DNA of 64,000 nucleotides, taken from assembly GCF_013760955.1 (NCBI RefSeq), contig NZ_JACDUL010000003.1:179303-243302 (forward strand). Direction: 5' to 3'. This DNA is from Methanococcus maripaludis (GTDB taxonomy: Archaea > AGJL01 > Methanococci > Methanococcales > Methanococcaceae). Both the position numbers and the translations under genes were made by a program. Within the stretch, counting starts at the first letter, position 1. Each line of letters opens with the position of its first letter. The notes below the pieces were generated by a model. That model saw only the letters and a program-made list of their open reading frames with translations. It was not told the DNA's origin and did no database searches. Shown here piece by piece: positions 51,837 to 55,082 of this stretch.

Positions 51837-52760
51837 TTAATTTGAATAGTATTTTTCAAGAGGGGGAACTACCTGTTTCTTTCTTGACATCATTCCATCA
51901 ATAAATACACTGTTTTCATCCAATTTAAGTTCAAATATTCTTTCAAAAGCTGATTTGTTTCCTGCAACTAAAACTTCGCTTCCTTCTCTCATTATGTCAG
52001 TTACAAGGAATAATACCATGTCGTATCCTTCTTTTTCAGCCATCTCATCGATTAAATTTTGAATTGCTTCTTTTTTTGATGCAACTTCAGATATATCGAT
52101 TACCTCAGCCTGTCCGATACCGACCTTTTTACCGTTCATGTTAAATTCCTTGTAATCGATGTTTAAAATTTCTTTTGGAGTCATTTTACCGACTGTTGAT
52201 TTTGCGGTCAGCATTTCCATTCCGTACGATTTAATATCCGAAATTTTTGCAATTTCTGCCAATTTTTCAGCAAGTTCCTTATCTAGGGTTGTTGCAGTAG
52301 GTGATTTAAAGAGTAAAGTATCTGAAAGGATTGCTGAGAGCAATACCCCTGCAATGTCTGCTTTTAATTCCTTATTTTTTCCACCGATAATATCGAGTAT
52401 TCCTCTAAAGTAAAGCTCAGAAATAACCGTTGCAGTTGATCCTACAGGTTTTGAGAGGTAGATAATAGGTTCAGATGTTGAAATACCAATTTTGTGGTGG
52501 TCGATAATTCCAATTAATTTTCCTTTATCGAAATCATCGAGGTTTTGTGATTTTTCTGCGTGGTCTACCAAAAACAATTCTTTTCCTTCTGCTGTTTTAA
52601 TTAATTCTGGTTCCATTAATCCAAATCTCTTTAAAATAAACTGCGATTCAGGATTTAATTCACCAAGTCTTGCAGGAAACGCATCTAAGAAATATGCAAG
52701 TGCTATTGCAGAACAGATGCTATCTGAATCAGGATTTTTGTGGCCTACAACGTACATCAT
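51837..52760 (-). CDS. ppaC: Manganese-dependent inorganic pyrophosphatase
   Basis: 307 aa, the size of family II pyrophosphatases without CBS domains. It hydrolyses PPi. DHH-type metal motifs: G-H-K-N-P-D-S-D-S (residues 6-14), D-H-A near residue 67, and D-H-H-K near 88, with a C-terminal S-R-K-K-Q-V substrate-binding segment. GGTGA lies five nt before ATG 52760 and eight before ATG 52757; either start is possible. Divergent from the H/ACA RNA promoter. Confidence 0.95.
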   Translation of the reverse strand: MMYVVGHKNPDSDSICSAIALAYFLDAFPARLGELNPESQFILKRFGLMEPELIKTAEGKELFLVDHAEKSQNLDDFDKGKLIGIIDHHKIGISTSEPIIYLSKPVGSTATVISELYFRGILDIIGGKNKELKADIAGVLLSAILSDTLLFKSPTATTLDKELAEKLAEIAKISDIKSYGMEMLTAKSTVGKMTPKEILNIDYKEFNMNGKKVGIGQAEVIDISEVASKKEAIQNLIDEMAEKEGYDMVLFLVTDIMREGSEVLVAGNKSAFERIFELKLDENSVFIDGMMSRKKQVVPPLEKYYSN

Positions 52761-52818
52761 CTATATCACCAAAAATTGAAAATTTAATGATTTTTATATT
52801 ATCTAAGCCGGGAAAGAC

Positions 52819-52826
52819 TATAAATA
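52819..52826 (+). promoter_or_regulatory. TATA box of the H/ACA RNA gene
   Basis: TATAAATA with an upstream purine-rich GGGAAAGAC as the likely BRE. A start about 26 nt downstream falls near 52849, two bases before the first stem of the RNA, so the promoter and the structure agree. Confidence 0.65.
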
Positions 52827-52847
52827 CATAATGATACTTATTAAAAA

Positions 52848-53085
52848 CATCTCCAATTAACCGACCTACATGGAGCTTGTGAATACTCTCGCTGTGATAG
52901 CGGGTTCGAAATTGGAGTAACAAGACTTTAATCGAATTTTTGGGCGAGTTGTAAGAGTTGGTAGGATCCTTACTGTGATCACAATACAGCAAAAATTCGT
53001 ACATTTACTCTCGACATAGGGTTATCTGACCGACATGGTATTTTCCAAGGATGAAAGTTAGTGTTAATGTCGAGGGACACTTTTT
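52848..53085 (+). ncRNA. Three-hairpin H/ACA guide RNA
   Basis: Three successive hairpins, each closed by a perfect stem and followed within 1-2 nt by ACA: H1 52851-52858/52910-52917, ACA 52920; H2 52933-52942/52990-52999, ACA 53001; H3 53010-53017/53067-53074, ACA 53077. Each can form a K-turn (paired GA dinucleotides plus a 3-nt bulge: H1 873-874/896-897, H2 955-956/977-978, H3 53032-53033/53053-53054). In all three the upper stem ends 15 nt before ACA, the rule for H/ACA guides. Proposed targets, by pairing with recalled 23S sequences, are the U1915, U2554 and (weaker) U2504 sites in E. coli numbering. H1's upper stem is poor. The region has no supported ORF. Confidence 0.8.
53081..53085 (+). 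terminator. Oligo-T terminator of the H/ACA RNA
   Basis: TTTTT directly after the last ACA box. Archaeal RNA polymerase terminates at such T-runs. It sets the RNA at about 238 nt. Confidence 0.6.
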
Positions 53086-53128: not shown

Positions 53129-53866
53129 CTATTTTAACGATGTTTTAGCAGTTTTATCAAATGGATTTCTCCTCATTGCAAGAGAAAACAGATAAGGATA
53201 ATTGTTTTTTAAATATTTCATGTAATTTACCCATTCTATTGTTATTAATCGGTATGATCGAATCATATCTCCGTTTAAATGTTCTATGTCATTTTCTGAA
53301 CTTTCGTGCAAATTTTCACGACTTTCGAGCTCTTCTAAAAGGTGAAATACCGCCCTTAAAAGTTCCGTGAAGTGTTCGTGCTCCATCAAGTTTGGATTTT
53401 CTAAAAGTCTCATTAAAAACTCTTTGTTTTTTGATAAAAATTCATAAATTTTCAAAATATCTTCTTTTGAAGCATTTAAAGTATAATCCCTATTTTTAGC
53501 GTAAGTCAGCGCATTTTTAAAGTCTTCATCTGACCAAGTATCGGTTACTTTCAATTTGCCCCCAATAGCATTGATATCTGGATCAATTTTCGAAAAATAA
53601 TTTAGAGTTTTGGTTCCGGTTTCACTAAAAAATGTACCAATAAGAATATTTAACTTTTCAAGTCTCGCAGATTTTTCCATATCGCTTAAAATTCCAGAAA
53701 TTACGACTGTTATTAAGAATACCTGGATTGGTACAAACGCCAATTTTCCAAAAAACGAATTTATTATTCCCAAATAATCATTAAATACTGCATACTGGAC
53801 GATATACATTAATATCGATGCAACCAATGCAGAAATCCAGAAAATTTTGTGCTGTTTTGTTTTCAT
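53129..53866 (-). CDS. Membrane protein of unknown function with two N-terminal helices
   Basis: 245 aa. Two membrane segments at about residues 8-27 and 41-62, then a soluble, charged and helical domain (residues about 65-245), probably cytoplasmic. No family recognised. The ribosome site before ATG 53866 is weak (AAGCGAT). It converges on the H/ACA RNA terminator from the right. Confidence 0.65.
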   Translation of the reverse strand: MKTKQHKIFWISALVASILMYIVQYAVFNDYLGIINSFFGKLAFVPIQVFLITVVISGILSDMEKSARLEKLNILIGTFFSETGTKTLNYFSKIDPDINAIGGKLKVTDTWSDEDFKNALTYAKNRDYTLNASKEDILKIYEFLSKNKEFLMRLLENPNLMEHEHFTELLRAVFHLLEELESRENLHESSENDIEHLNGDMIRSYRLITIEWVNYMKYLKNNYPYLFSLAMRRNPFDKTAKTSLK

Positions 53867-54415: not shown

Positions 54416-54527
54416 CATATCCCCTCGGATAGTTTACAATAAAATTATTTTTTGTAAGGCTATAAATATGTGCAAGCCCGATTTAAAGATAGTATTAAAA
54501 TTAGGCAGTTTGCATTCTGGTGATTTT

Positions 54528-55082
54528 ATGAAAATTTATTTTGCAACAGGGAATCAGAACAAGGTTGATGAAGCAAAAATTATATTAAAAGAAGTTGATT
54601 GTGAAATAGAACAGATTGAAATTCCTTATGCTGAAGTTCAGGGAAAACTTGAAGAAGTTTCTGCATTTGGGGTTTTAGAAGTTTTTGAAAAATTCAATAG
54701 GCCTGTTATCGTTGAAGACAGTGGATTTTTCATTGAAAAATTAAACGATTTTCCAGGAACTTATTCAAAGTTCGTTCAGGAAACTCTTGGAAACGAAGGG
54801 ATATTGAAACTTTTAGAAAATGAAAGTAATAGAAATGCATATTTTAAAACAGTTATCGGCTACTATGATGGTGACAACATCAAACTCTTTACCGGAATTG
54901 TAAAAGGAGTTGTTTCAACAGAGATAAAAGACGGGGGATTTGGTTTTGCATACGATAGTATTTTTATTCCAGAAGGAAAAACTAAAACTTTCGGAGAAAT
55001 GACAACCGAAGAAAAAAGCAAAATATCACACAGAAAAAGAGCATTTTACGAACTTAAAAATTATTTAGAAAATCGGCAATAG
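54528..55082 (+). CDS. XTP/dITP diphosphatase (RdgB/HAM1)
   Basis: 184 aa from ATG 54528 (GGTGA five nt upstream); the longer frame from 54468 reads through a promoter region. It hydrolyses ITP, dITP and XTP to monophosphates, so keeping deaminated purines out of nucleic acids. Family motifs: F-A-T-G-N-Q-N-K (5-12), V-E-D-S-G-F near 63-68, and the S-H-R-K-R-A-F near residue 168. The stop overlaps or touches the next start (TAGTGA). Confidence 0.95.

Follow-up and report, generated by a model that had tools for sequence, protein, structure and literature searches.

The locus studied here raises the question of whether one small RNA can serve three uridines of the ribosome, and which uridines these would be. 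In the window (the whole stretch of 64,000 nucleotides of Methanococcus maripaludis that was analysed), an earlier note had proposed a single RNA gene with three H/ACA guide hairpins, hereafter H1, H2, and H3. In our study, we arrived at the same main reading with a probability of roughly 0.86: the locus encodes one three-hairpin H/ACA guide RNA, assembled into RNPs, for U2504, U2554, and U1915 of the 23S rRNA (E. coli numbering). As judged from comparison, this small RNA very probably directs the change of uridine to pseudouridine at these three uridines of the ribosomal working centre. The locus contains the following features.

51837-52760, minus strand: divergent neighbour gene for a 307-aa protein, which we take to be ppaC (manganese-dependent inorganic pyrophosphatase)
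52819-52826, plus strand: TATA box TATAAATA, read directly; function putative
52848-53085, plus strand: whole predicted H/ACA guide RNA gene, from the sub-threshold HgcG match and the homologues
52851-52922, plus strand: hairpin H1, including the ACA box at 52920-52922; predicted target U2504
52851-52858/52910-52917, plus strand: closing stem of H1, CTCCAATT/AATTGGAG, 8 bp
52859-52864/52906-52909, plus strand: pocket of H1, AACCGA / TCGA
52933-53003, plus strand: hairpin H2, including the ACA box at 53001-53003; predicted target U2554 in the A-loop
52933-52942/52990-52999, plus strand: closing stem of H2, CGAATTTTTG/CAAAAATTCG, 10 bp
52942-52946/52987-52990, plus strand: pocket of H2, GGGCG / CAGC
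53010-53079, plus strand: hairpin H3, including the ACA box at 53077-53079; predicted target U1915 in helix 69
53010-53017/53067-53074, plus strand: closing stem of H3, CTCGACAT/ATGTCGAG, 8 bp
53018-53024/53063-53066, plus strand: pocket of H3, AGGGTTA / GTTA
53081-53085, plus strand: T-run TTTTT directly 3' of the last ACA; probable U-tract terminator
53129-53866, minus strand: next gene downstream of the RNA
54468-55082, plus strand: downstream gene, presumably rdgB (XTP/dITP diphosphatase, MJ0226 type)

The three hairpins, with closing stems of 8, 10, and 8 bp each followed by ACA, were found as the earlier note had described them, and in every one of them the upper stem ended exactly 15 nt ahead of ACA. 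The TATA box and the T-run that it had placed at the RNA ends were also present. The TATA box lies about 25 nt 5' of the predicted RNA start, in a stretch also kept in the closest relatives. The window RNA was found to have the H/ACA hairpin form of lower stem, open pocket, and upper stem, the upper stem of H1 being weakly formed. A loose mechanical H/ACA descriptor, applied to both strands of the 64 kb window, matched only two places, H2 and H3; H1 escapes it because its upper stem is weak. The folding energy of the locus was unremarkable (z = -0.70) and was dropped as evidence for an RNA. It is uninformative, and the case therefore rests on comparison, i.e., on the homologues and the compensated stems.

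Among the 36 Methanococcales genomes, single-hairpin covariance models detected H1 in 34, H2 in 34, and H3 in 35; the models of H1 and H2 are stringent, and the H1 of one Methanocaldococcus genome (G025) was missed by the model and visible by eye. Outside this order the models found H3 in 18 other archaeal genomes, and H1 and H2 in none. When the full alignments of H2 and H3 were folded with RNAalifold, the lower stems were out of register between families, and for this reason strands were compared within and across species. Within species, the lower stems of H1, H2, and H3 contained 7.9, 8.0, and 7.8 pairs out of 8 positions. Matching strands from different species with each other reduced these values to 7.2, 6.6, and 6.6. 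Such mixing cost pairs in all stems but the upper stem of H1, which hardly varies. Compensated change was found in the lower stem of every hairpin and, for H2 and H3, in the upper stem as well. The closing stem of H2, for instance, varies in sequence with the pairing kept (CGAATTTTTG/CAAAAATTCG, CCAACTTTTG/CAAAAGTTAG, GGGATTTTTA/TAAAAATCCC, GCAAACCCTT/AAGGGTTTGC, and AGGAGGTC/GACCTCCT). The covariation scores of H1 (0.188, the signal sitting in the lower stem) and H3 (0.516) were higher than in any of the 500 shuffles and any of the slid versions. The pockets of all three hairpins were nearly constant across species. The ANA box (ACA or ATA) was kept, and its spacing of 15 nt from the pocket top changed by one base at most. 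The left GA and the right (A)UGA were invariant or nearly so in H1, H2, and H3, in agreement with the possible K-turn that had been noticed in each. The alignment of related genomes, which the earlier note had recommended as a check, turned out in favour of its hairpins, with compensatory stem changes, kept ANA boxes, and presence in 34–35 of 36 genomes. From this comparison, the guide RNA itself is almost certainly real.

The upper stem of H1, correctly described beforehand as weak, contains an A-C mismatch and a bulged A in the window and was without covariation in the main alignment. Despite this mismatch and bulge, the upper part (52865-52904) was almost invariant (CCYACAUGGAGC...GCRAUGAUAGCGGG), unlike the upper stems of H2 and H3, which vary freely. 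The conserved part showed no outstanding extra complementarity to rRNA. Folded alone, H1 prefers a pocket-closing structure by about 5 kcal/mol. The H1 of G031 contains a clean upper stem (CCCUAU/AUAGGG), and this normal pairing supports the hairpin model of H1. In the divergent H1 of G025, G031, and G034, the CCGA/TCGA nucleotides were retained and the surrounding stems changed. A second, partial H1-like match (G013:C2:874051-874107; model positions 9–65, 51 bits) was found apart from the main gene and is perhaps a remnant or another copy.

No Rfam family matched the window at the gathering threshold. In a lenient search, the best family by far was HgcG/Pab40 (RF00064), at 52793-53084 with 31.4 bits and an E-value of 3.6e-7, which is below the gathering cut-off of 77 bits. 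A search with archaeal H/ACA models, another check suggested earlier, thus pointed to HgcG at a score under the threshold of that family. The other weak matches (Dicty class I, Tombus IRE, snoR120, and pemK) were at chance level. A sub-threshold HgcG match was present in 29 of the 36 Methanococcales genomes and none reached the cut-off; elsewhere the scores were 299 bits in P. abyssi and 101 and 88 bits in two Archaeoglobi. The window RNA contains the same tandem arrangement of three H/ACA hairpins as HgcG and is, as far as sequence can tell, a diverged relative of HgcG/Pab40. The Rfam model therefore misses the whole order Methanococcales.

For the targets, every U of the 16S and 23S rRNA of the same genome was scanned against each pocket. 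The best site was U2504 for H1 (6+4 bp, score 25 vs. 18 for the next site), U2554 for H2 (5+4 bp, 26 vs. 23), and U1915 for H3 (7+4 bp, 26 vs. 17). Shuffled guides performed as well in 2, 5, and 0 of 1000 cases for H1, H2, and H3, respectively. The earlier note had named the same three targets, and the 23S sequence that it had used proved correct for this genome; its pairings of 4+4 bp for H1 and 4+3 bp for H2 were too short. In the 23S rRNA of other species, the same site ranked first for H2 and H3 in all those tested, and for H1 it ranked first with one tie (G029). The complementarity was bipartite in all three hairpins, in the form x-U-N-y. The 3' guide of H3 pairs just with UAAC, weaker than the 5'-duplex energy cut-off proposed for P. 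abyssi in PMC4652768. The assignment of H3 to U1915 is held with high confidence, that of H2 to U2554 is considered quite likely, and that of H1 to U2504 is likely, if slightly less so.

In H1, guide and target were found to have changed together. The Methanocaldococcus genomes G025 and G034 contain the target UCGGCU with the guide AGCCGA, and elsewhere UCGGUU is found with AACCGA. The nucleotide equivalent to 2510 is C in G025 and G034, facing a guide G, and U in the other 23S rRNA examined; the facing guide base is A wherever H1 was read, except in G031. There, a U in the target faces a G in the guide, a G-U wobble resembling an intermediate of the change. The C at this position also occurs in E. 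coli, P. abyssi, and Archaeoglobi, and the guide-target change is therefore probably a single evolutionary event; it offers a clean example of coordinated change in guide and target. No such claim is made for the guide base facing 2499, which is at the same time part of a lower-stem pair.

Three-hairpin RNAs of this type with a U1915 hairpin are already known, which the earlier note had missed; one RNA covering three functional-centre sites, unusual in its view, is in principle nothing new. HgcG/Pab40/Pf7 (RF00064) of Pyrococcus and Thermococcus carries three H/ACA hairpins in one RNA, like the window RNA (three hairpins are reported for Pf7 in PMC2584109), and so does Afu-4 of Archaeoglobus fulgidus with its Archaeoglobi homologues, whose HgcG matches lie above the cut-off. 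Both Pab40 and Afu-4 make the U1915-type pseudouridine in vitro (PMC2584109). Hairpin 3 of Pab40, with the guides GGGUUA / GUUA and the target U1915 (P. abyssi L2016, in vitro), corresponds to H3 of the window, and our target for H3 agrees with this published result. The layout and the third target are thus known, and two of the three target positions, those of H1 and H2, look new here. In PMC4652768, Pa40.1, Pa40.2, and Pa40.3 are assigned to L2588, L1932, and L2016, and Af4.2b and Af4.3 to L2601 and L1970. With U1915 set to 2016, a U was found at 12 of 12 P. abyssi positions checked from two papers, which makes L2588 the equivalent of E. coli 2496. An identity of H1 with Pab40.1 by way of L2588 being U2504 was ruled out by this mapping. 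Pab40.1 thus differs from H1, which fits U2504, and Pab40.2, assigned to L1932 in the same source, differs from H2, which fits the A-loop.

Afu-4 directs hairpin 2 to the A-loop and hairpin 3 to U1915, in the same order as the window RNA. Its hairpin 2 fits U2555 (A. fulgidus L2601), 1 nt off the U2554 predicted for H2, and the published target of its hairpin 1 is U1167 of the 16S rRNA, unlike that of H1. When the sites of the 23S rRNA only were ranked, with 16S left out, hairpin 1 of the two Archaeoglobi fitted the U2496 equivalent and hairpin 2 fitted U2555 (each the best site in one genome and the second in the other), and hairpin 3 fitted U1915 (ranked first in one genome and joint first in the other). 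The hairpin order of peptidyl transferase loop, A-loop, and helix 69 thus appears common to Archaeoglobi and Methanococcales, and the sites of hairpins 1 and 2 in Methanococcales appear displaced by 8 and 1 nt. We lean towards the view that Methanococcales have an RNA-guided pseudouridine at U2504 and the Archaeoglobi hairpin order with the sites of H1 and H2 shifted by these 8 and 1 nt, so that the RNA would be a functional-centre module rather than a guide for three fixed sites. It would then be a case of short-distance retargeting of H/ACA hairpins.

In E. coli, RluC makes the pseudouridine at U2504 and RluD that at U1915; these are sites predicted here, but they are served by stand-alone enzymes without guide RNA. 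The predicted U2504 is accordingly an enzyme site in bacteria, and it lies outside the three pseudouridines reported for a Thermococcus region: only three are reported for the 2588–2612 region of T. kodakarensis (PMC6138745), which by the P. abyssi-based mapping spans U2504, and U2504 is absent from that list. In the literature searched, U2504 was nowhere found described as a guided site in archaea, and other papers may contain such a description. The Haloferax H/ACA RNA guides U1915/U1917 with HP2 and targets U2586 with HP1 (PMC2584109), so that it shares the U1915 target with H3 and has two hairpins, not three.

With H3 guiding U1915 as proposed, it is improbable that H1 or H2, or both, act on a neighbouring uridine (U2555 for H2) or on another RNA. 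The sites published for hairpin 1 of Pab40 and hairpin 2 of Afu-4 map to the U2496 equivalent and U2555, and A52986 in H2 could pair with U2554, leaving U2555 unpaired. However, U2504 was the top H1 site in all tested 23S rRNA except for one tie, and the U2496 site was absent from the H1 matches in the scan of 16S and 23S rRNA. In H2, an invariant G pairs with C2556, whereas the base opposite U2554 is mostly A, and U in G025 and G034; since the latter is not kept complementary, U2554 fits better than U2555.

It is still less likely that stand-alone enzymes make these sites, U1915 being made by an RluD-like protein, and that the RNA is redundant or serves some other purpose. The genome of the window was found to encode a 298-aa RluA-family pseudouridine synthase of bacterial type, from the following gene, which sits between a gltX-like gene and a dihydroorotase-like gene.

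G000:C2:295914-296363 (L221:1321-2217), minus strand: RluD-like gene

The best equivalog of the protein was RluD with 175 bits, below the cut-off of 351 bits, followed by RluC with 104 bits. It could provide a possible second, independent route to U1915. The best 80 relatives listed were all bacterial, with no archaeon and 44% identity at best, and the gene was therefore likely acquired horizontally. Looking late-acquired, it cannot account for an RNA conserved throughout the order. The H3 pocket is intact in the window genome and in M. jannaschii, for which the control set showed no PF00849 match. We give hardly any credence to the locus being a structured 5' leader, a regulatory RNA, or chance hairpins instead of an H/ACA guide. 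A 91-aa ORF on the minus strand overlaps it and the folding energy is ordinary, but three ANA-boxed, compensated hairpins with constant pockets, a nearest downstream gene on the opposite strand, and the persistence of H1-H2 and H3 as separate genes in Methanocaldococcus argue against such a reading.

For the guide RNA with the targets U2504, U2554, and U1915, we infer transcription, RNP assembly, and the three pseudouridines as follows. One small RNA would be transcribed from the TATA box at 52819 and would fold into three H/ACA hairpins, each offering L7Ae a K-turn-like element and Cbf5 an ACA box. Each hairpin would assemble with Cbf5, Nop10, Gar1, and L7Ae. Its open pocket would pair with the 23S rRNA nucleotides that flank a single uridine, and Cbf5 would turn this uridine into pseudouridine. 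H1 would act on U2504 in the peptidyl transferase loop, H2 on U2554 in the A-loop, and H3 on U1915 in helix 69. On this reading, a group that has genetically tractable methanogens among its members should carry three specific ribosomal pseudouridines.

The arrangement of the gene differs between genera. In Methanococcus, the RNA adjoins ppaC; in the window, rdgB follows downstream. In G009 and G011, both genes lie within 3 kb of the intact three-hairpin RNA and flank it. Across the Methanococcus and Methanocaldococcus loci examined, ppaC mostly accompanies H1-H2. Among the checkable loci of Methanocaldococcus (L103, L170, and others), ppaC was the usual neighbour of H1-H2, and H3 was located elsewhere, beside rdgB. 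In Pyrococcus and Archaeoglobi, H3 is the last of three hairpins, so a split of the RNA gene between H2 and H3 in Methanocaldococcus is the simplest account; a guide gene with several hairpins would thus have been divided into two. For M. jannaschii, PMC4652768 notes a related motif fitting the U1915-type position L2015; it is the H3 homologue at G028:C1:216275-216353, a separate single-hairpin gene unlike the three-hairpin window RNA. The linked H1-H2 gene of M. jannaschii upstream of ppaC goes unmentioned in the sections of that paper that were consulted.

A two-hairpin variant with H1 and H3 and without H2 was found at G008:C1:619642-619802 and G010:C1:356198-356358. In G010 it is a second copy in addition to a full three-hairpin copy, and in G008 no H2 was detected anywhere in the genome. 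Another H/ACA-like hairpin was found in Methanocaldococcus at G028:C1:986079-986154 (L201) and G027:C1:1531626-1531700 (L206), directly 3' of a gene whose end resembles elongation factor 2. This hairpin shares the upper stem of H3; its pocket sequences are different, and it therefore probably has another target.
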